Shown here: positions 8,790-27,512 of the stretch, piece after piece
Position numbering within the stretch: the first letter of the stretch is position 1
How the letters are laid out: each line of letters starts with the position of its first letter
DNA from: a virus
Strand: one strand, 5' to 3'
Length of the DNA stretch: 27,514 nucleotides
IMG/VR virus record: IMGVR_UViG_3300048583_000268
Span: 1 to 27,514 of that record
Notes under the pieces: generated by a model
What the model was told of the DNA's origin: nothing
Seen by the model: only the letters and a program-made list of their open reading frames with translations
Databases searched by the model: none
Translations under genes and position numbers: made by a program

Positions 8790-8825
8790 AAGATTTGAGT
8801 TATACTTTTATAACTCAAATCTTTT
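8788..8825. terminator. Bidirectional terminator between converging gene blocks
   Basis: A 17-bp perfect inverted repeat (8788-8804 and 8809-8825) encloses a 4-base loop. Each arm begins or ends with an A or T run, so either transcript would show a stable stem followed by a U tract. The stop codons of both converging genes (TAA at 8787-8789 on +, and at 8808-8810 on -) fall in or at the hairpin. It is the only boundary between the two transcription blocks. Confidence 0.9.
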
Positions 8826-11800
8826 TAAATTTTTATAAGCTATATCTGGATTAACAGTAGTACCATTAAATCCCCACATTTTTAACCAGTATGCCCATAA
8901 TTTACTATCTCCTTTTTCCCATATACCACTACTTGTTTGATATTGTTCTGTAGGATCAAAAATTAACTGAGAGAAAAATTTCATTACTCTTTCTATCATA
9001 CTATATGTAACAGTAGGGCTTCTAAGTATACGAAGTTGATCTTCTATACTTCTGAAGAAAGCAAATTCAGATGAAAGTCTAAAAGTTAAATATAAAGGAT
9101 AATACATAAGACTTTCATCTTCTTCATCATCTACAATATTTTCTAAAAGCATTACTGCTACTCCTAATAGACTAGCAACTACTGCTTCATACAAAAATCT
9201 TCTAAGATTATTTACTTCTTCTGGTAATAGGTTATGTTCATTACGAATTGCAAAATTTAAAAGATCTCTTGTTTCTTTTATTAACAATCTAAGAAAAGTA
9301 ATGTAATACCCTTCTGTAACATTGCCTAATGAGTGGTCTATACCCCTTCTTTTATATCGCTTTTTAATTCCAGGTACTATAAACTTACGAAACATTGTAA
9401 TTAATCTCCCTGCACTATGTCTTTGTATTTGAGGTTGATTTAGTTTATCATATACTCCATGAAGTCTCCTATTCATTGTATCTAACTTCTCTTTCATCTC
9501 GAAATGAACTTTTCCAGAATTAGGTAACTTAATTCCTTTTTTAAGTTGTATTATTCCTGCTCCATCTAACTCATAAGCATCATATAAACTTAATTCATTT
9601 CCTTCTGCGTCAATTATTTTAGTATCTTTCATTAAAGCTATCATAGCTCTTACATAAGTATGATGATCTCCTTTTTTCATCATATAATACAAAGTACTAG
9701 TTCTCATCATTCTTTTAGCAGCACTTGCAGATATATCTCTTCCATAATGATCTTCAAAATTTCCTTGAATCGCATCATAAATATCTATCATTTGATTTAT
9801 TAAACTTAATCCTACTGGATTAGTCATATCTTTAATAAAATCAACTTCTCTAGCTGCATATTCCAAATCCGCATCTTTCCAACTTTTCATGTTTAAGTAC
9901 TCTCCTGCTACTGCTTCCATTAAAACCATAGTTTCCTGTTGCATTATATTAGCTAATGCTGTTAATGGAGATGCTGCTATACTAGTTAATGACGTAATAT
10001 TCATAAAGAAATTAGCTAACTTACCTCCGTTAACCGCAGCATTTATAAAGGGTATATTAAATTTTTCTTGTTTTTGTCTTATGCCGTATATATTCATATC
10101 TATATATGCTTGTAACATTTGCAGAGTTATGTTACTATCATTAGAAGTATATTTTTCTAAGTTTAATCCTAATTTTTCTGCACTTTTTCTTATTACCTTC
10201 TCACCAGATGCTGTTCTTCTTTCTGATATAGAAGACATAGTTTTAGTTAAATAATTAGCAAGTGGTTTAACTGATGAATTTACTTTATATTCTTTTGCAG
10301 ATTTAAGATATATCGCAGCAGATGCCATTAAATCTCTAGAATAATCTGAAATTTCCATTTTATCTTGATATTTCATAGGTACTATTTTTGAAGTACCATA
10401 AGCATCACTCCCATATAAATTGACATCTTCTTCTATTATACCACCAAATGAGCTTCTTGCAGAGTATTTTATATAATCCATAACTCCATTTTGAGAAATT
10501 CTATCTGTAGTATCTTTATGTACCCCAGGTAAATCTAGTATAGACCTATAGCCTCTATTTTTTGGGTACAAACTATGGGCATAAACATATGTATATGCTA
10601 TAAAATCATAATATTTCTTTTTAATAGGGTCTTTTTGTATACTTTCATACCTTTCATTTGTATAAAGAGTCTTTTTCGGAATCCTAAACTGATAACCTAC
10701 ATAAACTTTAGTACCTCCATCTATTTTAATATTCTCTTCTAACCAACGATTCATAGCTTCTCTATATCTTTGGCTTGTTTTGGTACCGTATTCTTTAAAA
10801 AACACATCTTCTTGTTCTTTAATTATAGTTTCAATTCCTTTAATTAAAGTTATTTTTTCTCCAGTTATAGGATTTTCAATATATACATCTTCTTCTCCTA
10901 CTTCGTCTGTGTTTTGTAAATACCAATTTCTTTTTGCTCTATTTTGAGCACTTGTATCTTCTAATTCTAGTTCTATTCTATCATAGGCTTCTTTTCTTTC
11001 TTCATCAAATTTTATTAAATCAAACTGTCCTACTAAAGATAATTTTCCATCTCTTTCTTCTATAAATTCATTATTTAAATTAGCAGAATTTACTGTAATT
11101 TTTCCATTAAATTCTTCAACTATTTTAGAAGCAGATATACCCCATTCTTGTACCTCTTGTCTTACTTCCATTAATTTGCGCTCATACAACTTGGTAAAAT
11201 TAGCAAGTAATGGGTTTGGCATATCTTTAGCAGAAGTTAACCATCCATCTGCTAAATCTATACCAGTATATCCATTGTCTAATAACTTCATTATACTATC
11301 TTCATCTCCTAAAAAAGAAGTTATTCTTTCAACAGCTTGATCGTATTTTTCTTTTATTTTATTAAGTGCTTCTATTTTTTCTACAGAGATTTTATTTTTA
11401 GATAAATTATCAGTAGCTAAACTTGCTTTAATTTCATACTTTCTAGTAATTTTAATAGACTCCGACTCATACTGTGCGTATAATTTATCTAAATGAGGTT
11501 GTACATTAGTCTTTAATTTACTATGCATCATTTTACCTAATAAAGATGCTACTTTAGGCTTTACTAAAGATGTTATTTTATTTTCTATTTGATCAAATCT
11601 AGTTATTATTTGCTCCATCTTCTTAAAACTAGAAGATACCTCAACATTATTATTAGAATTTTTTAATACTTTAGTATAGAATTTTTTTAATTCCTCTATA
11701 GTAGGTCTAAAAAGATCAATATGTTCTGTAATAGCTTCTAAACTATATAAAGCATCTAGGTCATCTTCAAATTCTCCATTTTCTATGGTCTTAATAATTC

Positions 11801-14519
11801 TATTAGCTTCTATTACTATAGAAGGGTCTCTTTCTATACCTTCTTTATCTGTATAGAAAACAAACATAGAGTGTATTTCATTTACAAATGCCTCTAATGC
11901 TTTACCTGCTTTTATTCCACGTATACTATTTTGAAGTTTTTCAAGTTTATTTTTTCTTACTTCAGAAAACATACCCCCCTCTCTATTTAAATTATCTATC
12001 TCTACCTGTAATAACAAAAGTACCTTCTCATGTAAGGTCTGAGCTTGTATAGTCTCATTTCCAATTGTTATTTTCTCCCCTTTAAATTTTGTATCAATAG
12101 AATATTTTCTAGCTAATGGTAAATTTATATCTAAATTATCTACAGTGTTTTCAAATATTATTTTAGTAACAGTATTATTATCTATTTCACTTAAATGCGC
12201 TGCTATAACTTTAATCTCTTCTACTGCTATTCCTTTAGAAGCTAATAGACCAGTATGAATAGATAATTGCCCTTCATGTTTTTGCTTCAAACTGGCTTTT
12301 CCTGGTTTAAAAGAATCTGAATAACTCTTTTCTTTTTTCTCTCCGTTTTTATTAGTATAAAAATAACTACCCTTTACATTTCTTTTAGAGCTTTTAACAT
12401 CTAAAACTATTACTTTTCCTTTATCTGTTATTTCTATTATATCTATAGCAGATGCTACCCCTTCTTGTTCATTAAATGGAACTAATTGAGTTAAAAATAC
12501 ACTTTTTCTTCTACTAGTTTTATACATATTAAAAGCGTTTCCTAATTCAAATAATTGAATTTCATTAATAGTACCTTCTTTAGATAATGTAAGAGCTTCT
12601 TTAGTAGCATCTAATACAGATACTCCCTGAAATATTAATTCCGCTAGTTTATCTATTATATTTCCCCAATTAGTACTTAAATTTCTAATATCAGATTCTC
12701 CTTCATAAGAATAAAAAGGCATTTCATTCATTACTTCTGTACCTCGACGTAATTTAACGTCTGATTCAGTAGATTCATACCTATTAGTTACTGGATTTAC
12801 CCTATAATTATATTTTAATATATTCTCATTTATAGTATCTAATACTCCTTTTTGTACTTCATTAGCTGAATTATAAGCATTTGAGAATGAAGTATTAACA
12901 TCTCTTTGAAAGTCTCTATTTCCAGAAGCATATTTACTTAAATCAATTGTTTTTTCAGCTACTAATATATTAGCTAAATCTCCTATTGTTGCAACTGATG
13001 AAAGATCAATAGTATCTCTAGTTCTAAATATATCTGATATAAATTGCGAGATAAAATCGAAGAATCTTTGAATAAGAGACTTCTGTTCTTCGGAAATCTT
13101 AATATCTTTATCTTGAAATTTAGCATAAGAATCTATTCCTATTAAAGTAACTAATGCTTCTTCTAATTGTCTTTCTGTGCTATAATCAGAGTATACACTT
13201 TTTGTAATTTCTATTATTTTAGATGATGTTTGTTTTAATTCTCTTATTAAGGAATTATATAATTTAATATCTTGTTCTTTTAAGGCTCTTACTAATATGT
13301 GAGCTACCTCATGAAATGGTGTATCTCCTTTAGCTTTATTAGGGTTAATTCTAATAACTCCATTTTCATCCACCGTACCTAATACAGATATAGACTCATC
13401 AAATCTAATATCTAAATTAAATTGACGACGTAATTTCTCTATAGTACTTACTAATACATCTTTAGAAACTTGATCTACTTTATCTTGTGGTATGTTTCTT
13501 TGTAATTCTATATTCTGTAAATCTCTTACATTATCTACCTCTACTTCATTCCAAGTATTACCATACTCATCAGTAATTACTTTAGAGCTTAATCCTTGTT
13601 TTTTAAGTATATTAGTTACAGTATTTTCATAGAAATTATAAATAGGTTTTAAAGCACCAAACCCTTCTGTTTCTACTCTTTTAAGTTCTTGTTTAAGTTG
13701 ATTTACCTCAGTATAAATATTTTCTTTATCTTCTTTATAGTTTTGTTCAGTATAAATATATTCTCCTAAACCAGTTTTACGTTTACTACCAATCTTATTT
13801 TGATTATCAATTTCTTGTTTTTCAAGTTCTTTAATCCTATCTTCTTTCTGTTTTTTAAACTCTTCTAAAGTAGTATGACCTTCAATTTTACTGGCTGTAT
13901 TGCCACTCGGAAAAAGTATTTTTTCATAACCTTTCTTAGAACTATCTTGTATAATAGATTTAACAAAGAATGTTACCCAATTATTATCTTTGTTTAAGAG
14001 TTGAAGAAATTGGTTTTTACTTTTTAAGTTCTCATTTTCTTTTTCTATTTCTTCATTAATTTTTTTTACCCTTAATATTTCTTCTCTTTCTAAATTAGGT
14101 TGATTAGCAATTTCTTTTTTTAATTTGTTTTTATATTCTTCTATTAACTCTTTTTGAATATTATCTTTTAAAATCCAAAATTTTACACCATGTTGATTTT
14201 GAGATTCTCCTTTTACATAAGGTTTAACTTTTTCATTATATTCTTCTTTTTGCCAAATAACAAGTTGATTTTTGTGTTGAAAAACACTTTCATTTTGAGA
14301 TAGTATACCATAAAAATTTGTAGTAGAGCTAAAAAAATCTGGTATATTTCCACTTTCTAATTCTTCTAGTTGTTTTTTTACAGTATTTAATCTACCTACA
14401 GGTTTTACTTTTTCAAATTTTCTACCTGTTAAAGTTTGTACTTGAGGAGTTACAACTTTCTCAATAAACTCTTCTTTAGAGTTATAAGTTATTCCTTTAT
14501 ATATATGTTTACACGCCAT
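8808..14519 (-). CDS. Giant multidomain virion-type protein with zincin and PD-(D/E)XK nuclease
   Basis: This 1903-residue protein is probably an ejected cargo protein made with the virion RNA polymerase. Domains in order: charged helical N-terminus (1-168); the C-terminal half of an EVQSD-type domain (about 169-330, with LLNKDNNWVTFF and LFPSGNTASKIEGH); a zincin-like metallopeptidase motif HEVAH (403-407) with a later EEAL glutamate (453-454); a PD-(D/E)XK nuclease (about 595-775) with D693, D707-V-K709 and Q751; long helices (about 800-1300); and hydrophobic stretches near 1490-1530 and 1770-1795. The last could let it sit in a membrane, as ejected core proteins of other phages do. It starts 3 bases from the homing endonuclease stop and ends in the shared terminator. 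Exact function is inferred from domains and position. Confidence 0.85.
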   Translation of the reverse strand: MACKHIYKGITYNSKEEFIEKVVTPQVQTLTGRKFEKVKPVGRLNTVKKQLEELESGNIPDFFSSTTNFYGILSQNESVFQHKNQLVIWQKEEYNEKVKPYVKGESQNQHGVKFWILKDNIQKELIEEYKNKLKKEIANQPNLEREEILRVKKINEEIEKENENLKSKNQFLQLLNKDNNWVTFFVKSIIQDSSKKGYEKILFPSGNTASKIEGHTTLEEFKKQKEDRIKELEKQEIDNQNKIGSKRKTGLGEYIYTEQNYKEDKENIYTEVNQLKQELKRVETEGFGALKPIYNFYENTVTNILKKQGLSSKVITDEYGNTWNEVEVDNVRDLQNIELQRNIPQDKVDQVSKDVLVSTIEKLRRQFNLDIRFDESISVLGTVDENGVIRINPNKAKGDTPFHEVAHILVRALKEQDIKLYNSLIRELKQTSSKIIEITKSVYSDYSTERQLEEALVTLIGIDSYAKFQDKDIKISEEQKSLIQRFFDFISQFISDIFRTRDTIDLSSVATIGDLANILVAEKTIDLSKYASGNRDFQRDVNTSFSNAYNSANEVQKGVLDTINENILKYNYRVNPVTNRYESTESDVKLRRGTEVMNEMPFYSYEGESDIRNLSTNWGNIIDKLAELIFQGVSVLDATKEALTLSKEGTINEIQLFELGNAFNMYKTSRRKSVFLTQLVPFNEQEGVASAIDIIEITDKGKVIVLDVKSSKRNVKGSYFYTNKNGEKKEKSYSDSFKPGKASLKQKHEGQLSIHTGLLASKGIAVEEIKVIAAHLSEIDNNTVTKIIFENTVDNLDINLPLARKYSIDTKFKGEKITIGNETIQAQTLHEKVLLLLQVEIDNLNREGGMFSEVRKNKLEKLQNSIRGIKAGKALEAFVNEIHSMFVFYTDKEGIERDPSIVIEANRIIKTIENGEFEDDLDALYSLEAITEHIDLFRPTIEELKKFYTKVLKNSNNNVEVSSSFKKMEQIITRFDQIENKITSLVKPKVASLLGKMMHSKLKTNVQPHLDKLYAQYESESIKITRKYEIKASLATDNLSKNKISVEKIEALNKIKEKYDQAVERITSFLGDEDSIMKLLDNGYTGIDLADGWLTSAKDMPNPLLANFTKLYERKLMEVRQEVQEWGISASKIVEEFNGKITVNSANLNNEFIEERDGKLSLVGQFDLIKFDEERKEAYDRIELELEDTSAQNRAKRNWYLQNTDEVGEEDVYIENPITGEKITLIKGIETIIKEQEDVFFKEYGTKTSQRYREAMNRWLEENIKIDGGTKVYVGYQFRIPKKTLYTNERYESIQKDPIKKKYYDFIAYTYVYAHSLYPKNRGYRSILDLPGVHKDTTDRISQNGVMDYIKYSARSSFGGIIEEDVNLYGSDAYGTSKIVPMKYQDKMEISDYSRDLMASAAIYLKSAKEYKVNSSVKPLANYLTKTMSSISERRTASGEKVIRKSAEKLGLNLEKYTSNDSNITLQMLQAYIDMNIYGIRQKQEKFNIPFINAAVNGGKLANFFMNITSLTSIAASPLTALANIMQQETMVLMEAVAGEYLNMKSWKDADLEYAAREVDFIKDMTNPVGLSLINQMIDIYDAIQGNFEDHYGRDISASAAKRMMRTSTLYYMMKKGDHHTYVRAMIALMKDTKIIDAEGNELSLYDAYELDGAGIIQLKKGIKLPNSGKVHFEMKEKLDTMNRRLHGVYDKLNQPQIQRHSAGRLITMFRKFIVPGIKKRYKRRGIDHSLGNVTEGYYITFLRLLIKETRDLLNFAIRNEHNLLPEEVNNLRRFLYEAVVASLLGVAVMLLENIVDDEEDESLMYYPLYLTFRLSSEFAFFRSIEDQLRILRSPTVTYSMIERVMKFFSQLIFDPTEQYQTSSGIWEKGDSKLWAYWLKMWGFNGTTVNPDIAYKNLKRFEL
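12195..12737 (-). other. PD-(D/E)XK nuclease domain inside the 1903-residue protein
   Basis: Residues about 595-775 of the protein show the RecB/Cas4-like order: a helix with WGNIIDKLAELI (compare the G-x-x-x-H/D-x-x-x-E motif), then AIDIIEI with D693, then a strand and IVLDVKSSK with D707 and K709, then HEGQLSIHTGLL with Q751. This is the usual D, D-x-K, Q set of active nucleases. The boundaries are approximate. Confidence 0.75.
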
Positions 14520-14521
14520 AA

Positions 14522-15115
14522 TTAATCTATTGTTAGATTAGTCCAACATCTTTCTTTTTTAATATTAGAAATTTGTGATGGTTTTACATTAAATTGTAAA
14601 GCTAAATCTTTACCTTTTCTGCCTTCTTTTAAAAGAGTTTTAATTTCTCTTACTTGTTCAGCAGTTAGTTTACTATTAAGCTGTCCTTCTGCTATTTTTC
14701 TAATCCTTGTTTCAGACATTTTCTTTTTGCTTTCATCTGTATATTTAAAATCCTTTCTACTATCTGAAATTAATTTTTTAGTTTCATCTTTTCTTTTTCT
14801 TTCAATATGATAATCTGTTCCTGCAATTTTAAGAATATTAAATTCAGAATTATGATTATCTATATACCATTGTTCTTTTTTTATAAGTTCAATAGCATCT
14901 TCTACTTTTTCTAATATTTCTATATACAAACTATCTACTCCATATTTGTTTACAAAATTTTGTAAGATAGTATTTACATGAATACCTTTTCTTAATTTCC
15001 AATCATGTGCATATTTTCTATTATTAAAATGATATGCTGAACCAATATAACATTTTTCATTTATATTATTCTTAATTACATATATACAACTTCCTTTATA
15101 ATCTGGTGCTTTCAT
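14522..15115 (-). CDS. GIY-YIG homing endonuclease, apparently free-standing
   Basis: From ATG 15115 the protein has 197 residues; an in-frame TTG at 15130 would add five. The N-terminal GIY-YIG nuclease has CIYVIK followed by KCYIGSA (about 10-26), a basic R-x-x-x-H segment (NNRKYAHDW) and the catalytic glutamate in KKEQWYI (about 79-85). Two NUMOD3-like DNA-binding repeats follow (DETKKLISDSRK and DESKKKMSETR), then a helix-turn-helix (about 150-190, LTAEQVREIKTLL to SQISNIK) of the kind found in homing endonucleases. Such enzymes cut a specific DNA site to spread their own gene. It lies between two genes that seem to hold the two halves of one domain, and it is in frame with the upstream 345-residue gene. 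An intron location was considered, but no clear intron core was recognised. Confidence 0.88.
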   Translation of the reverse strand: MKAPDYKGSCIYVIKNNINEKCYIGSAYHFNNRKYAHDWKLRKGIHVNTILQNFVNKYGVDSLYIEILEKVEDAIELIKKEQWYIDNHNSEFNILKIAGTDYHIERKRKDETKKLISDSRKDFKYTDESKKKMSETRIRKIAEGQLNSKLTAEQVREIKTLLKEGRKGKDLALQFNVKPSQISNIKKERCWTNLTID

Positions 15116-15166
15116 AATACAAAGATACAAAATACATTCTGATTTACCAAATAAATTTCAATATAT

Positions 15167-16204
15167 TCACCCACAATCTACAATTAATTCACCTGATTTT
15201 TTCATTTCAGCGTATATATCTTCTGCACTTTTAATATCTCTTGATTTTTGGAAAATATCAGATTGTACTTCTAGTATTCTACGAGCTTTGTTATTACTTT
15301 TAATGTAAGAATAACCACCTGAAACAAGAATATTACCATTTTCATCTTTAACTTCTTCTTCTTTGTTATAAATACGGTCTGCTTTATCATCACTTCTAAA
15401 CCAACCTATACCTTTATCAGTAGCAAATTGAGCATGACCTTTAATACTAGGAGTAATAGCAGGTGTAGCTATTTCATTTTCTGTGTAGTTAGTACCTCCT
15501 GGAACTGTTAGATTAGAATAGTATTCAGAATTTTTTTCAATATATTTTATATAATCTTCTTTACTAATTTCTACTTTACCATCATAAGGAGTATTTTTAT
15601 AAAATTTATCCCCTTCTTTAGTATAAATAAAATCATCTCCTTTATTTGGATTTTTAGCAGTATTAATCTCAACAATATAACTATAATTAGCTAGTAATTC
15701 TATAATTATATCTCCTTTAGACATACCATCTTTAGCAATATTTTTAAAAAATTCTAATTGCTGATTGTTTACTCCTTGTTTTCTAAGATCATTTAACCAA
15801 CCTTCTAGTTTAGAAGACTCAAATTTACCTCTATTAATTTTATTTAAACCATTTATGAGTTTAAACTGATAATTAACTCTCTGTTCATCAGCTACTGCTT
15901 TTTTAATTATAAAAGTATGTACTGTTCTACCTCTACTATCTTTAGTAGATGTAATAGGAGTTACAGCATTTTCTCCGTATTCTTTTACAGCCACATTTCT
16001 AGCAGCTTGTGCAGACTCTTCATAATAATTATTAACTCTTTCTACTTCTATCCTAGATTGTTCTGTTGTAGCAGCATATAATTCTTCTAAAGTGGGTATA
16101 TAATCATCAGAAAAATTATCTAATATAACAGAAAGTTTAGTCTCTCCATATTTATCAGAAAATTCTTTAAATTGTGGTATTGATAAGTTAATACACTTTT
16201 TCAT
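15167..16204 (-). CDS. Virion-cargo-type protein with truncated EVQSD domain
   Basis: The 345-residue protein starts 10 bases after the giant polymerase stop. Its first 220 residues are helical and charged without a known motif. Residues about 232-323 (TVPGGTNYTENEIATP, PSIKGHAQFATDKGIGWFR and RRILEVQSDIFQKSRD) match, from memory, the N-terminal half of an EVQSD/EIQSD-type domain of phage polyvalent proteins. The conserved second half is missing here and appears instead near residue 169 of the 1903-residue protein. The last 22 residues after SRD do not continue the domain, and the gene ends at TGA just before the homing endonuclease. It could be the first exon of an intron-split gene, a separate subunit, or a gene broken by insertion. 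Polymerase neighbourhood suggests a virion protein. Confidence 0.75.
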   Translation of the reverse strand: MKKCINLSIPQFKEFSDKYGETKLSVILDNFSDDYIPTLEELYAATTEQSRIEVERVNNYYEESAQAARNVAVKEYGENAVTPITSTKDSRGRTVHTFIIKKAVADEQRVNYQFKLINGLNKINRGKFESSKLEGWLNDLRKQGVNNQQLEFFKNIAKDGMSKGDIIIELLANYSYIVEINTAKNPNKGDDFIYTKEGDKFYKNTPYDGKVEISKEDYIKYIEKNSEYYSNLTVPGGTNYTENEIATPAITPSIKGHAQFATDKGIGWFRSDDKADRIYNKEEEVKDENGNILVSGGYSYIKSNNKARRILEVQSDIFQKSRDIKSAEDIYAEMKKSGELIVDCG

Positions 16205-16214: not shown

Positions 16215-19200
16215 TTAAAATTTACACCTAATAACATTAGTAATTATTTTTTCAATAGGATCTCTTTTTCCTTCTGGAAGATTCTTTTGTTTATTAAATT
16301 CTTCTTCTACAAGTTCTTCTAATACATTTTTAACAGAAAGAATAACATTAGCCCGTTCCAAGTCTATTTCTCCTTCTTCAAGAAACAAAGCCATATTAGT
16401 AGGATTTTTTATTGACGTATAAAATTTATCCATTTCCTTTTTAAATGTTGTTTCTTTAGTTTTTTCTTTTTTTAGTTCTTCTCTAACTTCCATAAGTAAT
16501 TTAGGAAACTCTGTACCCCATTTACTTTTATCTTGTATATGTGTTAAAGTAGCGTCTCCTGTAGCTATTAATCTTTCAAGTGCTTTAGGATTTTGTTCAA
16601 AAGAAGCTTTAATTAAAGTTTTCATTCTTTGACTACTTGCTTCATCCCATGTTTTAGAATTTAAACCTTTAAACTTTTTTCCTAATGATTTAATTTCAAA
16701 AGCAGATTTAGAATCAAGAATTTGTTGAGCTATATTATTATTAAATGTAGATTCAGAAGCACTAGTATAAGCTATTTTAGCATATTGAAACCCTTGTTCT
16801 ACAGAATCAAAATCCTGATTTTGAAAACTAAACGGTCTATTAGCAAAATTACTTAAATGTGCATTTTCATTAGTACCTGCATATATATTAATAGTTTTTT
16901 TAGTTTCTTTTTCTTGTAATTCTTCTAGACTCTGAGTAGGTTCTTCTTCTTGTTCTTGTTGTTCTTGTTGAATAGCTGCTACAGGTTCTATCTCAGTTTT
17001 AATATTTTCATATACAGAACTTAATCCATTTTCAGATATTAAATTATGCTCTTGTGTAGATAAAAAGTAAGGACTAAGAGTTTTACTTCCTATATGTGTT
17101 TCTTGATCGTACACAACTCTTACTGCTACTATGTTACCTTCTTTATCTAAAAAGTCTAAATTATCGAATTTTCCGTCTACTAATTTAGCAATTTTTAATT
17201 TATTTTTACCAGTTTTTTCATCTTTTTCTAAAAATTCTACCTCAACAGGTACAAATATATTATTTACCTTAGTTAATTTAAATGCATGTGGAAAAATTAA
17301 CATGTTTTCTTCTTTCTTAAACAACTTAGAATTGTCAATAAGTCTATCTATTTTATCTAAAAAATCTTTTTTCTTTTTCTTAAAGTCTACTTTAGATACT
17401 ATTTCCTCATCTTCTGATTCTATTATGTAATCTTCTAAATTAGTTTTAATATCTACCGTAATAGAAGTATCTCCTATTGTAATTACATCTTTTAATTCAT
17501 CTTTAGCTAATGCTTTGAAAGTAGTTTTTTCTACATCATCTCTATTTTTTGTATACTTTAAATATAAATTAGTAAATTCAAAAGCCAATTCTTTAGCTGA
17601 AATTCCAAAATGTTCTTTTATTTTTGAACCGTCTCCTTTTAAAAATATCTCTAAAGTTTTATTAGTAATATCGAATAACCCAAATTGTTTATAAATATCT
17701 GGCTCTATATTAGTAGCAAAACTTCCATTCTTAAATATAAAAGAGTCTTTTATTAAAGAAAAGTTTATTAACTTATGGGTCAAATGTTTAGCTTTTGGAT
17801 TTAAATGCAATTGAGTAAACCCATCTAATATAGCAGATTGTGTCATAGACTCTTTTTTGCTCATTGTGTCCATGCTAATGTTATAAACATTTCCTCCTGC
17901 AAATTCCCCAAAACTATGTGGTATTACATTAAACTTTAAGTAGTTTAAAAAAGCATTATTTGCAAACTCTGGTTCTTTCATTAACTGTATTAACTCTAAT
18001 GATAAATCAGGAGTAAATAATAAATCAAATCCATCTATTAATTGTTTATTATTTCTAACTGCTCTAGCTGTAAAGAAAGCAAGTAATTGTTTTCTTAACT
18101 TATCTATACTTTTTACATTAGTTCTTTTTCTTTGTTTCAGGTTTTTTAAAACTATATTAGAAACAAATTTAGGAAAAGCAGTTTCTAATAAAAAGAATAA
18201 CTTAGAAATCTTCATACTTTCTTCATATCCTGATATTAAACCAGTTAATATAAGATGGTCATTTAATACTGCATCCCCATCAACTATAAAAGATTTAGAT
18301 CTAACTCTTTCAATAGACGTTTCTATATTAGTTGTTTCTGCAAAAGTAGAATCTAATCCTTTTAATAGAGATGTGATATTTCCAAAACTTCTCATATCTT
18401 CTGCTACTGTCTTTAATAGCTCATATTGAGATAATGCTGTTTTTTGTATTCTTAATATAATGTTGTCTATATTTGCATCTGTTACTTCAATCTTTAATTC
18501 ATTTAACAGTTTTACAAATTCATCAGTTGTTTTATTAGGGCTTGGAGCAGTATATTCTAAAGTAGCTATTAGCAGCTTTTCAGTAAGGTACTTACTGTTT
18601 ATTACACTAACTTCATCTAATCCATTTCTTTTAGATACTATTGTTATAGCATCTTCTATACTAAGAATACCTTTTGAAAAGGGGTTATTCTTTTCTTTAG
18701 CCATAGTATTTGTCAAGTCTATTATTGCAGGAAGATTTAAAAAATGTAACATTCCTCTAAATCCTTGCCCTACTAATATACCTGCTGAAAATATAGCTAG
18801 AGAATCTTCTGTTAAATTAAAGTTGTAAGGGTCTTGGTATTTACCAGAGTCAACCTGTGCTGTTATAGATTGATCTGATATAAACATTACTCTTTCTCCA
18901 TTACTATTTACTAGTTCTGCATTTTCATTAAGATTTAAATCAAATTTATTCCTTCCAAAAATACTAATATCTTTATCTTGAAAAACTCTTCCTGCTAAAT
19001 ATGATAAAGTAGTACTAGTTTTAGCTGCAATACCTACATTTCTTTTACCCATTTGAAAGGACTCATCTAATAAAAGTTTATTAGCAAAGCTATATCTTTC
19101 TGTTATTCTATTATCATTAACTAATCCTAGTTCTTCAAATCTTTTTTTAGTCTCTTCAAATACAGTTCTTTCAGCTCCTGTAGCAGCTATAGCTTTATTA

Positions 19201-22200
19201 TATTCATTATGATTCAATGCTATTTGAATAGATAACATTAAATTATTTGTTTCCTCTATGCTTTGTGGAATTATATCTTTAATTTTACCGTTATCGTAAG
19301 CAGTAATATTATTTCTAACTTGCTGCTCATTAAAATCTTTGATATTAAGTAAAGTAATACCTGCTTTTAATAACTCTATATCTTCTGGACTTAACTTAAT
19401 ATATGATGTTTTATGCAGCCCTTCTTTTTTAAGAAAAGCCATTAAAGCTTCGTTATTATTTAATAGATACGAATAAAATTCTTTTTTAGCTTGTACAACT
19501 CTATTTTCTATACTATGAACTTCTGGTAACATAGTAAGATATTCTCCATATAAAATAATCTCTTTATTATCTTTAAAAGAAGATGGTAATTGAGAGTATA
19601 AAGCATCAATGTCAAAGTCAGACCCTGCAAGTAATATAATTTCAATAGGTAATACTATCATATTACCATTTTCTTCTGGTGTGAAGTCTACTATTTTATA
19701 GTTACCCATAGAGTGTTTATCCTGAGTAGGAATACGAACTCCAAAAAACTTCAAAAGTTTTGGCGGAATATCATCTCCTATTTCCAAACCTAGCATCTTA
19801 GCATATGCTTTACTAACTATTACTTCACTATAATAATTACCGTTTTCTTCTATTCTGTGTCTTAATCTTCTGTATTTTCCAGTCTTAGCATCTTGTATTT
19901 GAAAACCATAATCAGGAACTAATATAAATTTAGTTCCACTTACAGAATGTTTTAATGTTTTATTACTTACCATAGACAAAAACATTGCTTCAAACTTACT
20001 TTCTATAGAAGGAAAGTTTAGACCATACTTAGGATTAACTCCTGCATCATCAGTGCTAAACATTTCTAATACATGAGGTGTTCCTCCAGATGATTCTATT
20101 GTATCTCTGAATTTTTGAAGCATTATATCATATCTAGCTCTATCATTATTAAATATTTTTTTTATAAGTTCTTGTCTCTTTTCTACAATACCTTTTCCTA
20201 TTCTACTAGCTATTAATTTTTGATATGCTTCTACTAAATCTGTTCCTTTTATTTTCTTATTTTCATTAAAGGTTATTTCTTTAGATGATGTTTCTATCCA
20301 AATGAGATTTAATGCTTGTGTAAGACCATTAACAGTACTAGAAATACCAGAAGTTTCTACTTGTTTTCTAATAGCTTGATTAGAAACTTCAAATTGGAAT
20401 CCACTTAGATCATAACTATTCGTTTGAGAATTAAATTCTCCGTATTTAGGTAGTATTTTTTTAAGAGCAGAATCAGTCATAACTAAATCTGATTTTAAAA
20501 GCTCCATATCATTTAACATATTATGAAGTCTTTCTCTACCTCTAATTGGTAAATAAAAAGAATGAGTTTTTTGTAGTAACTCTTGTTTAGTATAAAAAGC
20601 CCCATCTAACTCTAATAAAGAAATTCCTTCTATTTCCATTCTATCAATAAGATCAAATATAGCATTTAAATCGTCTATATTTCCTACTATCATAGATGTA
20701 GTACGCCTATTAATATTAAATACAGAGGTTTTAGAAGTAAAATAATGATCGTTTCCTTGTAACTTCAGTGATTGTGGTATTGCATCTTCTGCATATAATA
20801 TTTCCCATTCTTTTTTAGTTAAAGGAAGTCCTCTTAATATTTTTTTCCTAAATATTCTTTCTACTACAGGAGGTTTAAGACCTTGAGAACTTAAATATGT
20901 ATTTAAGTACCATCTTGAATTAGTGTAAGTAATAGCATCCATAGTTTCTATTAAGCCATTCTTATTTACTACACCATGTTTTACAGCTTCTTCTTCTTCT
21001 ATATTTAATCTAAGGCCCTTTATTGCAGATACAATGCTTGTTCCCTTACCCATATCTGCTCCAGTAGCACTAGAAGTAGATTCTCTTTTAATAGCCTCTA
21101 ATGTAGTATTCTTAAAAGAGATTATATTGTTATTATGGTTTATTAAAGTGTGAGCAGAATAAGACATTAAAAAGTCATTTACTACAAAATTAGAAAGCGC
21201 ACTTTTAACTATCTCTCTACTTTCATTTATATATATAGCAGGTAAATTACTACCTTGAGTAAGTTTTAAAGATTCTATTTCATTTCCTTTTATAGTTTGT
21301 TTACTTATATAGGCTAATCCTACTTTAGGAGAAATCATTAAACTAACTAAATCATCCGTCTTTTCTTGTATAAACTCATTAAGCATTTCTTTTAATCTAG
21401 AATTACCTTGTCCTAATATATCACTAAGATCAGAAGTAGGATCAGAGGTTAGCCTTTCTTTTATCTCGTTAGTAAAAGTAGTTATAATAGACTCAGGGTT
21501 ATTACTTTTAAATACATTAAAATTAAATCCATTATCTTCTGGATTAATATTGTACCCTTTTATTTCTGTTTGTTGAGTTCCAAGATTAGATATAATTATA
21601 TCTAATTCTCCCATAAAAATAGAACTTAAAGAATCTAAAGCAATATTAGAAAGCTTCCCTTTTTCCATCATATCATATTTAGGAGCTTGTACTAAATATT
21701 GTCTACTTTTATCAGAGTTAACTGAATATAAGTATACTGAAAATGGAATATTTTCTCCTACAATGTACTTCTTTTTAACTGATGCTCCTAAAGACATTAA
21801 GTATAGTAATTTAGCTGCTATACTAAGATCGTTATAATTAGTTCCTTCTGTTCTGTCTTTTAATACTTTATTAATTTTAGAATCCCCACTATTTTCTTCT
21901 TCTTCTATTTGTTCTGGAGATTTATTTTCACCTGCTTCATCTGTTAGAGCTTGATCTCTAGCTCCTCCTGCTACTTCCAATTCTAATTTTGCTATGATTT
22001 CTACCCCATTTTCTAAATTAAGTATAGGATTATAAAATAAAGAATTTAAAGAAAGGTACTTATAAATATCATCTGGAAAAGAAGACCCTAGTTCTTCATA
22101 AATCTCTGTCATTAATTTTGTTACTCTTTCTTTTTCTTCTACAGGAACAAGGTACAAATCTTTATACTGTGTTTTTAAATCTTTAATTTCTTTAAAAAGA

Positions 22201-25200
22201 TCTAATAAAATAGCTTCTTTAAGATTGGCAAATTGTTGAGATACGAAGAAGCTATAAGTCTCAGATTGTACTAAGTCTCCTTTCATATTCCTAAAGGAAC
22301 TAGGTATTACAGACTCATCAAAAATACTATTAGCTACAGCTAAGTATTTTAATCTAGTAGAAATAGAATCATTTTCTTCTTCCTCTTTTTTAGCTTGTAA
22401 TTCAGCGTTTGCTTCTACAGTACTGTAATCATCTACATAAAATAATTGTTTTTTAACAGTATTTTTAGTAATAGCGGCTATTAACTGATCTGCCATTATT
22501 TCTTTTATAGTAGGATCATTGTAATTTAATTGTATAGTATCATATATATATTTTATAAACTTATTTTCTATTAACTCATTTCCTAAAATAGCATCTTCTA
22601 TATACTTTTGATTATCTTTTAAATAAGAATACTCAATAAATCCTCTACTTAAAACTATTCCTAATTTTTCATAAAGAGCTTTTATTCTATCTACAGTTTC
22701 TTCTAACAATTGCTTAGAATTTTCAGAAGTTAACATTGTATCAATATCTGTTTCTGAGTTCTTATCATAAATAGCCTCTAATTCTTCTGCTACTTTTTTA
22801 GCTTGGGCTGCTGTAAGTGGGGTAGAATCAAAATTGTTTCTCCAATTAGCATATATTTCATTTTGCGCCCCTCTATTATTTGCGAATAAAGTATTAAATA
22901 GTCCTTTACTAGAATCATAACCAACGTCTCTATATTTAAGAGAAGTACCCTGTGCAGCAGTTATAAATAAATTATAGTTATTTGATTTTGCTAATTCTTC
23001 AAATGATTGTTCATGTAGGTCTTCTAAGTTATAAGGTATAACATTATTTGCTCTACGATACTCTGTAGTTAGCTCTTTATAAATCTTATCTGTAATAAAG
23101 TCATAAAAGAATTGACTATTAGGATTGTTTTTACAATACTTCTTGTATTTATTTAACATATCCTTTTTTCTAGTATTACTCATTGATTTAATAATGCCAC
23201 TATAAATAGCAGAAGTAAATACTGGTCTACTGTACTTAGGGTTTTTTAAATCTATAATATTACCGAAACCAAATTCATCTCTTGGAGCATAGGCAAATCC
23301 TATTAATGCCCTCATTTTAGCAGAGAATCTATCTATTCCCCCTTTTGAAGACGATTCCTCCATCCAATTTTCCTTTGTATTTTTATCTTCTGGTTTTTTA
23401 TTCTCGTCTTCTAAATATTCAGATAATGTTTTTATATGAAAATCTAATAGTTTTTCTACTTCTTTTTTTATCTTCTTCCTATTTTCATTTATACCAAAAG
23501 CATTATATTTAGTATTTAGTCTACTTTCTATTAAGGATTTTTGAGATGGAGTTAAAGTAGCGTCTTGTTTTAATTGATCTAACTCTTCTTTAAAATTAGC
23601 AGGACTATAATAATAAGTTAATTCTTTATAGGTAACATCAAACAAATTACTAAATAATTTTTTATAGGTATCTGATTCTTCTTTTTCAGATACATTACTT
23701 AGTTTATCATACAGTTTACTAGCTATATCATTTATTATTGTAGATGCGTCTTCTCTATTTAAATGTTTTACTATTTGAGAACCATCTTCTTTAAACCCAG
23801 AAAAGCTTTTCAGTAACATAAAAGCACTAGGAGCTTCTTTAGAGTATACACTATAAATAGGTTTAGCATTTTTGTATTTACCAGATGCTATATTCTCAAA
23901 AAGAAATTCTACTTGATCTTTTTTACCTATTAATGATCTTACAAAATCTTTAAGAGCCTTAAATATCCTACCTATTAGTCCAGAAGGTTGAGATTTTTTA
24001 CCCAACATGTAATGTCTAAATTCTTCTGCCATTCTTTCTTCAAGATACAAATCTTCAAGTTGCTTGCGAGATAAAGTAGACCTAGTAAGGGGTTCTTCCT
24101 TTACGAAATTATCAAGTTGTGCTTGTGTAGGTGCGCCATACCTAGTTTTAGCTTGTGAAAAAGTTTCTGATATAGTAAAATCAGATAAGAAAGTTCTAAA
24201 TACAGCATGAAAAACTTCATGATATTCTGTTCCTGCTTCTGCTCTAGAATCAAGTTCTATTGCACCATTAATAAATCTACTTACAGAAACATTAGGCTGC
24301 ATACCTAATCTTCTAGCAAGATCAGTAACTTCATAAGCGGATATAGAATTTCCTAATAATTCTACTATATTAGCTTTTGCTTCTTCTATATTAATATGTT
24401 GTTTATGTTCTTGTGATATTCTAAAAGGAGCTCCATCTTCAATAGTATCTATTATAGAAGTAATCCCTCCTACTATATAAAAATTAACTCCATTAATTTT
24501 AGTACGATCTAAATATACTTCATAAGTTAAATCAAGAAATTGCTCAAAAGTAAGACTATTATTAGCTAATCCTAATAATTCTATTATATTATCTTTATAA
24601 GTTTCCGCTATTTTAGATATAGTTTCTTTTACATTTTCTTTATTTATACTAGGATTAGTATCTGGATTTGGATCTCCATTATGGTCTTCATCTAATGAAT
24701 CTTCTTGTTCTAATAAAGCTAACTCTGTGTCTATAAATTTAGGAAGAAGATATCTACTAATAATAATTCCCTGTTCATTTTCTGATTTAGCTTTTTTTAA
24801 AGAGTCTTCTAGATCAGCAATAAGTTGTTCTTCACTTAAAGTTTCTTGCCACTCTTGATATTTTTTTTCATCTAAAACCTTAAACACATCATTCATTATA
24901 GACTCTAAGTCCTGAGTATTTAATATTAAATCTTTTAATTTAGTTAGTTTAGTTTTTCTATCTGTAGCTCCTACTAAATCTTCAAAGTCTTGTGTCGGTT
25001 CTCCTTCTGGAGGTTCTTCTTTAGCCTTTGTTTTTCTAACAGGCTGCACAACTCTTTCTGATTTCTTAGGAGCTAATTTACCATTCATAGATGGTATACC
25101 TGCTATTTTTTCTTCTCCAAATTTATTAGGCAATGAAGCAATATTTATTCCTTTAACTTCTGTTTTTCTAGCTGCGTTTTCTAATAACTGCCAATCTTTA

Positions 25201-27512
25201 TCACTGCTAATTAAAGTTTTTTCAAATTTATCTAACTCTTTTCCCTCTTTAGTAGCCTTTACCTTAGTTTTATATTCTATATCTATCTCTCTTAAAAGAG
25301 GAACAGATTTAATTACAGCATTTATAAAATAAATATATTTTTCTACAGAATCTATTACTACTGGAATAGATTCTACTACTCCTTTATTATTTTTTCTCCT
25401 ATAAGAACCTACTAATTTACCGTCTTTTTCATATACTACAGCAGTTACTGGCTTAGAAACTTTATTTACTTTAATAGATATTTTGGATTGGCCACTCTTA
25501 TTAAATCTATTAGAGTCAAAATTTAATAGTACTTCTACACTACTATTTTCATTAGTAGTATGATATAAAGTAGCATTAGGATTTGTTTCTATTAAATAAT
25601 TAGATACATTTAAAAACTCAGAACGATGTCTTTCCAAATCTAATTGTGCATCTGTAAAACCAAAATCATTTTTTAATTCATCAAATAACCAACGATAAGT
25701 AAAAGTATCATCTGCTTGAGATTTATTTTTTAATTCTTTTAATTTTTCAGGAGATATGGCTCTTAATATAGCTAAATTAAATTTTAAATTATCTAAAAAA
25801 GTAGCTTCATCCTCTATACTATGTTTAAGTCTAATTTGTTGTAATCCTACTAATTGATAAAAATTAGAGTTTCTAATAATAATTTGCCTATTATTATTTA
25901 ATTCTCTACCCATTCTTTTTTCTACATCATTTTTTATCTTTTCTACTACTTCTAAGACTTTTCCTTGTAATACTTCTTCTCTTCCATCTTTAAATCTAGC
26001 TTTAAAAATACTCCTACCTTGTTTATTTTCATATAAAATTATAACAGGTTCTCCATTTGCAAAAGTCGCTTTCCTTCTATTAATTTTATATTCTATAGGA
26101 AATGCAAACCTATCAAAATTAGTAATAGTTTCTTCTTCTCTTATTGGTTCTTCTAAAAATTCATTTAAAGTAGTGGTAATTTGAGGGTCTGATGTAAAAT
26201 TAAGTCTCTCTTTAAATACTACAAATTCTTTAAGTCTTTCTGATGTTACAACATCTCCTAGCATTTTAAGATCTTCTAATAACTTTCTAGTATTAGTAAG
26301 ATTCTGTACAAATGTTCTTCCTTCTTCTGATAAACTTCCATTTTCAATGAAGTCAGGATTTAACATTGTAATATGATTTATATCAGTAACATCTATATTT
26401 ACTAATCCTTGTGGTGTTTTAACTTTAAACCTATTAGGATGAGGAAACCCTCCTATAAGTTTATCCTTGTAATAAACATATAATCCTTTAGTATTATCTC
26501 CTTCAAAACCAAAAGATACATCTATATTAGGATTTCCCTGTGTTTGTCTGCTATCCTTGTATTCTGTTTGTTTCCAGTCTTCTAATTTTATAGTAAGGTT
26601 GCTTAAAATCTCATTAGAATCTTTAGCAATACCCATTAACTTTATGTTTTCTGCTATTTCTTCTGTATTTTCTTTATTAAAACCCTCATCAGTAATATTA
26701 ATTATATAATCTGCAAAAGGAATTACATGAGTCTTTTGTGTAGTTCCTTGTTTTTGTTTTTGATTTTCTAAATATTCTTTATACTTTAATTTAGTTTCGT
26801 CTATTAATTTTTGAAAATACTTTTTTAAATTGTCATCTTTTTCAGAAAGTTTTATAAGCTCTTCTAATTTTTCTAACCTAGCTTTATACTGAGCTGCTAC
26901 TATTTCTTTAGTTTGAGAATAATCTATTTCTGGAACTTCCATAAAATTAATCTTAGCTTTTTCAGGCTTACTTAATGTACTAGCTGCTACTGCTTCTGCT
27001 ATATTTCTAGGATCATTTATTTTATCTATATAATCTCTAATTTGCTTTTCCCTTTTATTAAGGTACTCTGCCATAAATGAAGTTTGGGTATCTTCATTAC
27101 TCATTATCTTATAATCAAATTCAGCCTGTGCTTCTAAAGCAGCAATATTTAAAAATTGAGCAATAGGATCAAAAAGTCTATCTTGTTCTACAGAACTCAA
27201 TGCATTTAATGAATTGATTAATTCTACAAACTCTTTACTACCTTCTTGATTTTCTTTTATAAACTTTCCTAAATCTGCTGCTTTAAATTGCTCTATACTA
27301 GTAATAGCATTTTCTGGTTCACTAGTCATATTTAAGTAATCTATTGCAGATTGTATTTGCTCTGGACTTTCTTTCTTTAATTTGTTTAGTATATTATTAC
27401 TAATAGTAATAAAAAAAGGCTTTCCTTCTTCATTTTTTAATACTATATTTTCATACCCTTTTCCTATAGTGTTAACTAAAGAATTTATATCTCTTAAAGA
27501 TACATCTCCTTC
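16215..27512 (-). CDS. Giant virion RNA polymerase with zincin and NADAR domains (5' partial)
   Basis: The frame is open to the right edge. ATG 27329 gives 3704 residues, but at least 61 more in-frame codons lie upstream, so the gene is incomplete at its 5' end; numbering here starts at that ATG. The polymerase core is marked by R2532-IPTQDKHS and then GSDFDIDALY, with D2571, D2573 and D2575 as the metal-binding DxDxD of the double-psi beta-barrel, resembling R-x-PT...NADFDGD of cellular beta'. A zincin motif HEVFH (1037-1041) with EE at 1102-1103 lies in the N-terminal third. An acidic Gln/Glu linker (about 3445-3475) precedes a NADAR domain (about 3480-3617). In crAss-like phages such polymerases are packaged and enter the cell to transcribe early genes; that role is inferred. 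The second barrel was not placed. Confidence 0.93.
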   Translation of the reverse strand, partial: EGDVSLRDINSLVNTIGKGYENIVLKNEEGKPFFITISNNILNKLKKESPEQIQSAIDYLNMTSEPENAITSIEQFKAADLGKFIKENQEGSKEFVELINSLNALSSVEQDRLFDPIAQFLNIAALEAQAEFDYKIMSNEDTQTSFMAEYLNKREKQIRDYIDKINDPRNIAEAVAASTLSKPEKAKINFMEVPEIDYSQTKEIVAAQYKARLEKLEELIKLSEKDDNLKKYFQKLIDETKLKYKEYLENQKQKQGTTQKTHVIPFADYIINITDEGFNKENTEEIAENIKLMGIAKDSNEILSNLTIKLEDWKQTEYKDSRQTQGNPNIDVSFGFEGDNTKGLYVYYKDKLIGGFPHPNRFKVKTPQGLVNIDVTDINHITMLNPDFIENGSLSEEGRTFVQNLTNTRKLLEDLKMLGDVVTSERLKEFVVFKERLNFTSDPQITTTLNEFLEEPIREEETITNFDRFAFPIEYKINRRKATFANGEPVIILYENKQGRSIFKARFKDGREEVLQGKVLEVVEKIKNDVEKRMGRELNNNRQIIIRNSNFYQLVGLQQIRLKHSIEDEATFLDNLKFNLAILRAISPEKLKELKNKSQADDTFTYRWLFDELKNDFGFTDAQLDLERHRSEFLNVSNYLIETNPNATLYHTTNENSSVEVLLNFDSNRFNKSGQSKISIKVNKVSKPVTAVVYEKDGKLVGSYRRKNNKGVVESIPVVIDSVEKYIYFINAVIKSVPLLREIDIEYKTKVKATKEGKELDKFEKTLISSDKDWQLLENAARKTEVKGINIASLPNKFGEEKIAGIPSMNGKLAPKKSERVVQPVRKTKAKEEPPEGEPTQDFEDLVGATDRKTKLTKLKDLILNTQDLESIMNDVFKVLDEKKYQEWQETLSEEQLIADLEDSLKKAKSENEQGIIISRYLLPKFIDTELALLEQEDSLDEDHNGDPNPDTNPSINKENVKETISKIAETYKDNIIELLGLANNSLTFEQFLDLTYEVYLDRTKINGVNFYIVGGITSIIDTIEDGAPFRISQEHKQHINIEEAKANIVELLGNSISAYEVTDLARRLGMQPNVSVSRFINGAIELDSRAEAGTEYHEVFHAVFRTFLSDFTISETFSQAKTRYGAPTQAQLDNFVKEEPLTRSTLSRKQLEDLYLEERMAEEFRHYMLGKKSQPSGLIGRIFKALKDFVRSLIGKKDQVEFLFENIASGKYKNAKPIYSVYSKEAPSAFMLLKSFSGFKEDGSQIVKHLNREDASTIINDIASKLYDKLSNVSEKEESDTYKKLFSNLFDVTYKELTYYYSPANFKEELDQLKQDATLTPSQKSLIESRLNTKYNAFGINENRKKIKKEVEKLLDFHIKTLSEYLEDENKKPEDKNTKENWMEESSSKGGIDRFSAKMRALIGFAYAPRDEFGFGNIIDLKNPKYSRPVFTSAIYSGIIKSMSNTRKKDMLNKYKKYCKNNPNSQFFYDFITDKIYKELTTEYRRANNVIPYNLEDLHEQSFEELAKSNNYNLFITAAQGTSLKYRDVGYDSSKGLFNTLFANNRGAQNEIYANWRNNFDSTPLTAAQAKKVAEELEAIYDKNSETDIDTMLTSENSKQLLEETVDRIKALYEKLGIVLSRGFIEYSYLKDNQKYIEDAILGNELIENKFIKYIYDTIQLNYNDPTIKEIMADQLIAAITKNTVKKQLFYVDDYSTVEANAELQAKKEEEENDSISTRLKYLAVANSIFDESVIPSSFRNMKGDLVQSETYSFFVSQQFANLKEAILLDLFKEIKDLKTQYKDLYLVPVEEKERVTKLMTEIYEELGSSFPDDIYKYLSLNSLFYNPILNLENGVEIIAKLELEVAGGARDQALTDEAGENKSPEQIEEEENSGDSKINKVLKDRTEGTNYNDLSIAAKLLYLMSLGASVKKKYIVGENIPFSVYLYSVNSDKSRQYLVQAPKYDMMEKGKLSNIALDSLSSIFMGELDIIISNLGTQQTEIKGYNINPEDNGFNFNVFKSNNPESIITTFTNEIKERLTSDPTSDLSDILGQGNSRLKEMLNEFIQEKTDDLVSLMISPKVGLAYISKQTIKGNEIESLKLTQGSNLPAIYINESREIVKSALSNFVVNDFLMSYSAHTLINHNNNIISFKNTTLEAIKRESTSSATGADMGKGTSIVSAIKGLRLNIEEEEAVKHGVVNKNGLIETMDAITYTNSRWYLNTYLSSQGLKPPVVERIFRKKILRGLPLTKKEWEILYAEDAIPQSLKLQGNDHYFTSKTSVFNINRRTTSMIVGNIDDLNAIFDLIDRMEIEGISLLELDGAFYTKQELLQKTHSFYLPIRGRERLHNMLNDMELLKSDLVMTDSALKKILPKYGEFNSQTNSYDLSGFQFEVSNQAIRKQVETSGISSTVNGLTQALNLIWIETSSKEITFNENKKIKGTDLVEAYQKLIASRIGKGIVEKRQELIKKIFNNDRARYDIMLQKFRDTIESSGGTPHVLEMFSTDDAGVNPKYGLNFPSIESKFEAMFLSMVSNKTLKHSVSGTKFILVPDYGFQIQDAKTGKYRRLRHRIEENGNYYSEVIVSKAYAKMLGLEIGDDIPPKLLKFFGVRIPTQDKHSMGNYKIVDFTPEENGNMIVLPIEIILLAGSDFDIDALYSQLPSSFKDNKEIILYGEYLTMLPEVHSIENRVVQAKKEFYSYLLNNNEALMAFLKKEGLHKTSYIKLSPEDIELLKAGITLLNIKDFNEQQVRNNITAYDNGKIKDIIPQSIEETNNLMLSIQIALNHNEYNKAIAATGAERTVFEETKKRFEELGLVNDNRITERYSFANKLLLDESFQMGKRNVGIAAKTSTTLSYLAGRVFQDKDISIFGRNKFDLNLNENAELVNSNGERVMFISDQSITAQVDSGKYQDPYNFNLTEDSLAIFSAGILVGQGFRGMLHFLNLPAIIDLTNTMAKEKNNPFSKGILSIEDAITIVSKRNGLDEVSVINSKYLTEKLLIATLEYTAPSPNKTTDEFVKLLNELKIEVTDANIDNIILRIQKTALSQYELLKTVAEDMRSFGNITSLLKGLDSTFAETTNIETSIERVRSKSFIVDGDAVLNDHLILTGLISGYEESMKISKLFFLLETAFPKFVSNIVLKNLKQRKRTNVKSIDKLRKQLLAFFTARAVRNNKQLIDGFDLLFTPDLSLELIQLMKEPEFANNAFLNYLKFNVIPHSFGEFAGGNVYNISMDTMSKKESMTQSAILDGFTQLHLNPKAKHLTHKLINFSLIKDSFIFKNGSFATNIEPDIYKQFGLFDITNKTLEIFLKGDGSKIKEHFGISAKELAFEFTNLYLKYTKNRDDVEKTTFKALAKDELKDVITIGDTSITVDIKTNLEDYIIESEDEEIVSKVDFKKKKKDFLDKIDRLIDNSKLFKKEENMLIFPHAFKLTKVNNIFVPVEVEFLEKDEKTGKNKLKIAKLVDGKFDNLDFLDKEGNIVAVRVVYDQETHIGSKTLSPYFLSTQEHNLISENGLSSVYENIKTEIEPVAAIQQEQQEQEEEPTQSLEELQEKETKKTINIYAGTNENAHLSNFANRPFSFQNQDFDSVEQGFQYAKIAYTSASESTFNNNIAQQILDSKSAFEIKSLGKKFKGLNSKTWDEASSQRMKTLIKASFEQNPKALERLIATGDATLTHIQDKSKWGTEFPKLLMEVREELKKEKTKETTFKKEMDKFYTSIKNPTNMALFLEEGEIDLERANVILSVKNVLEELVEEEFNKQKNLPEGKRDPIEKIITNVIRCKF
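16479..16892 (-). other. NADAR (YbiA-like) domain at the polymerase C-terminus
   Basis: Residues about 3480-3617 show the YbiA/NADAR pattern: NAHLSNFANRPFSF, then DFDSVEQGFQYAK with the conserved glutamate, then LGKKFKGLNSKTWDEASSQR, then an LIATGDATLTH segment and the final KWGTEFPKLLMEVREEL. NADAR proteins cleave N-glycosidic bonds; some reverse ADP-ribosylation of guanine in DNA. The key E, W and D positions look kept, so activity is plausible. Confidence 0.82.
19605..19619 (-). other. RNA polymerase catalytic DFDID motif
   Basis: The five codons encode D-F-D-I-D (2571-2575), the magnesium-binding loop of the polymerase. The preceding segment, R2532-IPTQDKHS then a strand-rich KIVDFTPEENGNMIVLP, is in the same order as R-x-PTLHR and the loop in bacterial beta'. 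All three aspartates are intact. Confidence 0.85.
24207..24221 (-). other. Zincin-type HEVFH motif in the polymerase polypeptide
   Basis: The codons encode HEVFH (1037-1041). A second acidic helix, RMAEEFRHYM (1099-1108), supplies the likely third zinc ligand E1102 or E1103. Spacing of about 60 residues fits a gluzincin-like fold. It may cut the giant protein itself or a host target during entry; neither is shown. Confidence 0.65.

Follow-up and report, generated by a model that had tools for sequence, protein, structure and literature searches.

A NADAR domain fused to crAss-like phage RNA polymerases is exchanged between polymerases

The window (27,514 bases from a virus record, the whole stretch of DNA that was analysed) was recognized by its gene set as a crAss-like phage contig, and no close DNA relatives of it were found among the phage records searched. 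Its minus strand carries a block of giant ORFs, and its plus strand encodes ThiF, uracil-DNA glycosylase, MazG, adenylosuccinate synthetase, and a 5'-3' exonuclease. The giant-ORF block includes a 3704-aa ORF with a NADAR domain (16215..27329, minus strand), a 345-aa ORF directly downstream of it (15167..16204, minus strand; Cys only at positions 4 and 344), and a 1903-aa ORF (8808..14519, minus strand; Cys only at position 3). A GIY-YIG endonuclease ORF, probably encoding a homing endonuclease, lies between the latter two (14522-15130). Elsewhere in the window, adjoining genes at 220-2811 look like a ubiquitin-like modification module: one product (368 aa) carries a JAMM-like HSHHS motif, another is ThiF/E1-like (Pfam, 58 bits), and the third is their 255-aa partner. 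The phage-borne adenylosuccinate synthetase homologue (7459-8556; 135 bits) has a PurA-type GDEGKG motif.

The central part of the 3704-aa ORF matched 72 phage records by tblastn, mostly Crassvirales, with many of the matched proteins annotated as 'putative RNA polymerase'. The ORF contains the motif GSDFDIDALY, which includes the catalytic DFDID (aa 2571-2575; 19605..19619, minus strand) in its GSDFDID block, and the D-F-D-x-D residues showed no variation in 17 aligned relatives. When a profile of the DFDID region from 17 relatives was compared with the PDB, the sole match was the DNA-dependent RNA polymerase of phi14:2 (6VR4; 5.3e-31). Judged by sequence, the ORF is a crAss-type DNA-dependent RNA polymerase, and the motif and profile match uphold its initial annotation as a virion RNA polymerase. 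Its counterpart in crAss001 is the DFDxD protein gp50, one of three polymerase proteins seen in virions by mass spectrometry (PMC10172136). By homology to gp50, the window polymerase is also likely to be packaged, which supports the earlier suggestion that it enters the cell with the virion. The polymerase frame stays open to the contig edge (27512) and its first residues lack the MxxC start that several relatives have, so the true start may lie upstream of the window.

The NADAR domain (aa 3478-3633; 16431..16898, minus strand) is preceded by a Gln/Glu-rich linker (about aa 3446-3477; 16899..16994, minus strand) and followed by a tail (aa 3634-3704; 16218..16430, minus strand) with helices in the AlphaFold2 model, which ends in Cys3702 and thus has the terminal Cys pattern described below. 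NADAR family PF08719 was matched at 16506-16871 on the minus strand in a single open frame (53.2 bits, E 7e-16), hmmscan aligned it to aa 3487-3608 (50.3 bits against a cut-off of 35.1), and a match to phrog_1017 widened the domain to aa 3478-3633. The initial annotation had drawn it at 16479-16892 (aa 3480-3617), a span that covers the core and is slightly short C-terminally. AlphaFold2 modelling of aa 3440-3704, with 35 homologues in the input, gave pLDDT values of 88-98 over the NADAR domain, 94-98 in its core, and 49-63 over the linker, in agreement with the proposal of an independent module behind a Gln/Glu linker. Foldseek comparison with the PDB returned, at E <= 1e-3, just two structures, both NADARs: YbiA (2B3W; 3.4e-6, probability 1.00) and a Phytophthora NADAR (8BAU; 2e-5, probability 1.00). 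The score, the fold, and 37 conserved homologues rule out a chance match. The presence of a NADAR domain at the C-terminus of the giant polymerase was thus borne out by Pfam, PHROG, AlphaFold2, and Foldseek.

Active-site positions were compared with those of the Phytophthora enzyme, for which residue roles are available (PMC11543638). Glu3511 (16797..16799), Lys3518 (16776..16778), Trp3561 (16647..16649), and His3597 (16539..16541), all on the minus strand, match E43, K50, W89, and E125 of 8BAU and do not vary across 37 unique NADAR homologues, whose alignment has 18 invariant residues. Glu3511 and Lys3518 are also equivalent to E88 and K95 of the E. coli C7 NADAR, the lysine being an essential phosphate contact, and His3597 occupies the catalytic position of C7 D171. 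The earlier statement that the conserved residues are intact therefore held for Glu3511; the second catalytic position is His, not Glu or Asp. YbiA has Glu at this position, DarT1-linked NADARs have Asp, and phage NADARs have His (PMC11543638), as does T4 gp30.3. Because of His3597, the window NADAR is of the phage (His) type, as opposed to the YbiA subfamily, defined by Glu in the last strand, or the DarT1-linked (Asp) antitoxins. It does share with the antitoxins a lysine at the K115 position, Lys3547 (16689..16691, minus strand; K75 in the Phytophthora enzyme), where 29 of the 37 homologues have Lys and 7 have Arg. In C7, DarT1 rescue depends on K115 whereas catalysis does not, and the non-rescuing YbiA and T4 gp30.3 have Ala and Gln at this position (rescue data: PMC11125620, PMC11543638). 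The retention of Lys or Arg here, absent from both non-rescuers, is a suggestive hint at DarT1-type rescue and no stronger than that. Two residues of the ADP-ribose pocket differ from 8BAU, R93 being replaced by Ser and D130 by Lys. No DarT gene (PF14487) was present in 30 related phage records or seen in the window, and its absence from the 30 records led us to reject a phage-borne toxin-antitoxin pair. A NADAR tree with YbiA, 8BAU, and T4 added had long branches and was unreliable.

To survey the recurrence of the fusion, five NADAR sequences from crAss-like phages were used to scan 2.9 million viral contigs, which yielded 40 NADAR loci; a second scan added 1. At all 36 loci with DFDxD in reach, NADAR and DFDxD lay in a single ORF, so the suggested survey of related polymerases confirmed the fusion. 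The domain was C-terminal to DFDxD in 26 unique polymerases and N-terminal in 4, and each of the 30 NADAR-bearing records had exactly one NADAR. No stand-alone NADAR occurred among the surveyed NADAR loci, an absence that applies to the crAss NADAR subfamily because the seeds were drawn from it; in crAss-like phages, NADAR is apparently always polymerase-borne. When loci were instead sampled by polymerase similarity, a NADAR match was found in 5 of 80 (one of them weak), and among 40 whole records sampled in the same way it was found in two, both times within the polymerase ORF. Crass-like polymerases themselves are numerous, at least 551 having been found. NADAR is therefore rare among crAss-like polymerases (about 5%) and an accessory module; since some 95% of them lack it, it is no part of transcription itself.

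A scan of genome contigs with a single sequence gave no matches, and a profile scan gave three loci: L130, L131, and one YbiA-like gene. L130 (WLWP01000004.1) is a crAss-like NADAR-polymerase fusion contig inside a metagenome-assembled genome (MAG) labelled Pseudomonadales, representing either contamination or a host lead, and L131, a contig of a Bacteroidales MAG, holds a SLOG-NADAR fragment that looks like another fusion. The NADAR polymerases of Oafivirinae and of L039 contain in-frame TAG codons, and their frames read well when TAG is taken as a sense codon (L005, L006, L007, L039, L042, L043, and L044).

Other domains adjoin NADAR in some of these proteins. A circularly permuted YpsA-type (cpYpsA) SLOG domain lies directly before or after NADAR in the same polypeptide in L010, L013, L017, L038, and L047, that is, in 5 of 36 NADAR polymerases compared with 0 of 75 NADAR-less ones (Fisher p 0.003); the SLOG assignment exceeded the Pfam cut-off in the two of the five that were scanned. 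DUF7831 follows NADAR in L010 and in the Oafivirinae loci L042, L043, and L044, and was also seen in the NADAR-less polymerases L092, L096, and L117. In L015 and L035, an SF1/PIF1-like helicase (AAA_30 and UvrD_C_2) stands behind NADAR at the polymerase C-terminus. Cysteine is scarce in crAss-like giant polymerase proteins (269 per 370,406 residues in 105 proteins), and 91 of the 269 fall within the last 8 residues. Across the window and its relatives (L004-L128), 95 of 109 ORFs have Cys within the last 6 residues, against an expected 0.6%, and about half have Cys no more than 8 residues from the first Met. The window polymerase has just C1399 and C3702 (16224-16226). The terminal Cys residues may be a tag for packaging, processing, or disulfide formation, and no paper on this pattern in crAss-like giant proteins was found.

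The strongest evidence for our interpretation is the exchange of NADAR between polymerases. Pairwise identities of NADAR and polymerase were uncorrelated (rho 0.045, 32 sequences), and in three pairs NADAR and polymerase identities were 99/20%, 92/23%, and 82/28%. The first of these is L022/L023, whose loci (20.5 and 18.6 kb) gave one blastn match, 471 bp at 97.5%, corresponding to NADAR; the sole matches for L011/L014 (447 bp, 92.6%) and L033/L045 (485 bp, 82.7%) likewise lay over NADAR. In approximately unbiased (AU) tests, the RNA polymerase data rejected the three NADAR pairings (p-AU 5.7e-6, 7.4e-6, and 4.9e-4), values that are somewhat optimistic because the pairs were picked after their identities were seen, and the NADAR data rejected a seven-member polymerase clade (2.4e-8). 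NADAR thus moves independently of the polymerase, and co-inheritance is rejected. L019 and L033 have common flanking linkers and a polymerase region 68% identical, with NADAR cores of different lineages (p-AU 0.004). The dN/dS values of the exchanged pairs (0.08, 0.20, and 0.33) are low, indicating purifying selection on the module. Conservation of NADAR DNA was higher at the two ends (0.66-0.78) than in the middle (0.38-0.45), and the conserved ends could aid recombination. In cr126_1, a short N-terminal segment precedes NADAR and the polymerase body follows it; alignment with crAss001 gp50 begins at aa 246 versus aa 94, and the excess of ~150 aa contains NADAR, so that cr126_1 reads as a precise insertion of NADAR relative to gp50. 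An assembly chimera behind the swapped module is unlikely because the L023 version recurs in contig L046 (99.9% over 10.9 kb) and the frames are intact, a reservation being kept for single contigs. The best explanation is that the NADAR cassette is gained, lost, and swapped through recombination between polymerase genes.

We consider it probable, with some reserve, that the window domain is a complete and active phage-type (His) NADAR ADP-ribosyl hydrolase serving as an interchangeable, virion-delivered counter-defence cassette on a crAss-like virion RNA polymerase. The polymerase and its NADAR would be packed together in the virion, as for gp50, and injected before the DNA or together with it, after which the polymerase would refold (injection model: PMC10172136). 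Being packed and injected, the hydrolase would reach the cell before phage gene expression. Tethered to the polymerase, it would strip off the ADP-ribose adducts that an NAD-dependent host defence produces, acting ahead of early transcription and while it proceeds, the likely targets of cleavage being N-glycosidic adducts from host NAD-consuming defences. As substrate we tentatively favour guanine-ADP-ribose carried by the incoming DNA or by nascent RNA, where it would stall the attached polymerase unless removed; this is the best-supported chemistry for the NADAR superfamily, and every NADAR tested in two studies hydrolysed guanosine-ADP-ribose, T4 gp30.3 included (PMC11125620, PMC11833690). 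In vitro, T4 gp30.3 strips guanosine of ADP-ribose in both DNA and RNA (PMC11125620, PMC11833690), yet cells exposed to DarT1 are not rescued by it (PMC11125620). The initial proposal that the domain counters ADP-ribosylation is accordingly plausible; its narrower form, with DarT-modified guanine as the substrate, is weakened by the Asp-to-His change, by the failure of T4 gp30.3 to rescue, and by the SLOG neighbours, which equally suggest soluble derivatives.

Soluble ADP-ribose-derived signals are the main alternative, ranking below guanine-ADP-ribose on nucleic acid as a possible but less likely substrate. NADAR, often with a YpsA-type SLOG, would then degrade or capture compounds such as the cADPR variants or ADPr-1''-P that host immune enzymes (TIR, RES, or the like) produce, with the polymerase fusion providing early delivery only, and we regard this account too as somewhat unlikely. 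The adjoining cpYpsA SLOG domains of 5 of 36 NADAR polymerases and none of 75 others would fit it, as would the missing DarT1 rescue by T4 gp30.3 (PMC11125620) and the analysis of Iyer et al., who found SLOG, Macro, and NADAR to co-occur in DNA viruses and proposed that the phage versions mainly target soluble, low-molecular-weight ADP-ribose derivatives (PMC9503650). However, the SLOG partner is missing from the window and most relatives, the NADARs tested in PMC11125620 and PMC11833690 all act on guanine-ADPr, and the DarT1-rescue position is Lys or Arg in 36 of 37 homologues. Less likely again is a role for NADAR in serving the polymerase itself, for instance by guarding the enzyme or by processing transcripts that bear an NAD cap or ADP-ribose, and hence in transcription as opposed to counter-defence. 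The strict association of NADAR with the polymerase ORF in crAss-like phages is what this would predict, but only about 5% of polymerases carry the domain (5/80 loci, 2/40 records), and it moves between unrelated polymerases and between both protein ends, where a core function should be steadier. That NADAR has become a catalytically dead binding module, sensing ADP-ribose or nucleic acid, is distinctly improbable: the pocket changes relative to 8BAU (R93 to Ser, D130 to Lys) would suit such a role, but E, K, W, and H are fixed in 37 diverged copies, and E, K, and H are the same in the active T4 gp30.3 (W is Tyr in T4). The riboflavin-pathway glycosidase proposed for YbiA, the alternative named in the initial annotation, has lost ground and is very improbable, since despite the superfamily fold and YbiA as best structural match, the YbiA-defining glutamate is His, no riboflavin genes were seen nearby, and virion delivery would make little sense for such an enzyme.

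The interpretation of NADAR as a virion-delivered counter-defence cassette may extend to the polymerases as a class, although we hold this broader version only tentatively. Crassvirus virion polymerases would act as delivery vehicles with terminal plug-in slots, located just inside their short Cys-tagged termini, into which NADAR, SLOG, DUF7831, and probably other cassettes would be swapped between polymerases of almost no common sequence, and the conserved terminal DNA of NADAR would perhaps offer recombination handles. At entry, the polymerase would clear ADP-ribose marks from the DNA or RNA on which it is working.

In the human gut, Crassvirales rank with the most abundant viruses, and they are present in other environments too; we know of no route by which they evade NAD-based or ADP-ribosylation-based immunity. 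The swapping of this one domain between otherwise unrelated polymerases suggests that it is a weapon, injected and interchangeable, aimed at bacterial defences. If so, a polymerase-tethered hydrolase would be a counter-defence acting before transcription, unlike stand-alone phage genes such as T4 gp30.3. Modular evolution is seldom displayed as cleanly as in this exchange of one domain between polymerases about 20% identical, and the exchanged NADARs provide a list of natural variants for matching each to a host defence. Already known were the NADAR family and its phage members, crAss polymerases, and the general concept of polyvalent effectors carried in virions; the recurrent polymerase-NADAR fusion and its exchange between polymerases are new. 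A literature search, with subscription papers and preprints outside its scope, found nothing joining Crassvirales with NADAR or DUF1768, and the database record of cr126_1 labels its domain DUF1768 only. Iyer et al. described viral NADARs as typically stand-alone unless they belong to RNA-virus polyproteins (PMC9503650), and the polymerase-NADAR fusion is an exception to this statement.

Among known systems, T4 gp30.3 (PF08010) resembles the window NADAR in being a phage gene of a related family with the same Glu/Lys/His set, but it is a stand-alone, very divergent protein of 152 aa without a polymerase fusion. The DarT1-linked NADAR antitoxins of E. coli C7 and Geobacter have in common with it the fold, Glu, Lys, and Lys or Arg at the K115 position, whereas the window domain has His for Asp and is virus-borne, with DarT in none of the 30 related records. 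YbiA (2B3W) and the Phytophthora NADAR (8BAU) share the fold and the E43, K50, and W89 equivalents; they are stand-alone, while in the window NADAR the last-strand catalytic Glu is His and other pocket residues differ. The polymerases phi14:2 gp66 (6VR4) and crAss001 gp50 have, like the window polymerase, a DFDxD body in a giant single polypeptide, but gp50 has no NADAR match and no NADAR is known in gp66. The same NADAR subfamily is present inside the giant transcription proteins of cr126_1 (gp003, Crassvirales) and of the Oafivirinae cr130_1, cr131_1, and cr272_1, at the N-terminus in the former and, in the latter, with DUF7831 behind it and TAG used as a sense codon; their records list just DUF1768, DprA-like, or hypothetical. 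Phage polyvalent effector proteins likewise are large, comprise several domains, are delivered by the virion, and have enzyme domains that can be exchanged; in the window the carrier is the RNA polymerase itself.
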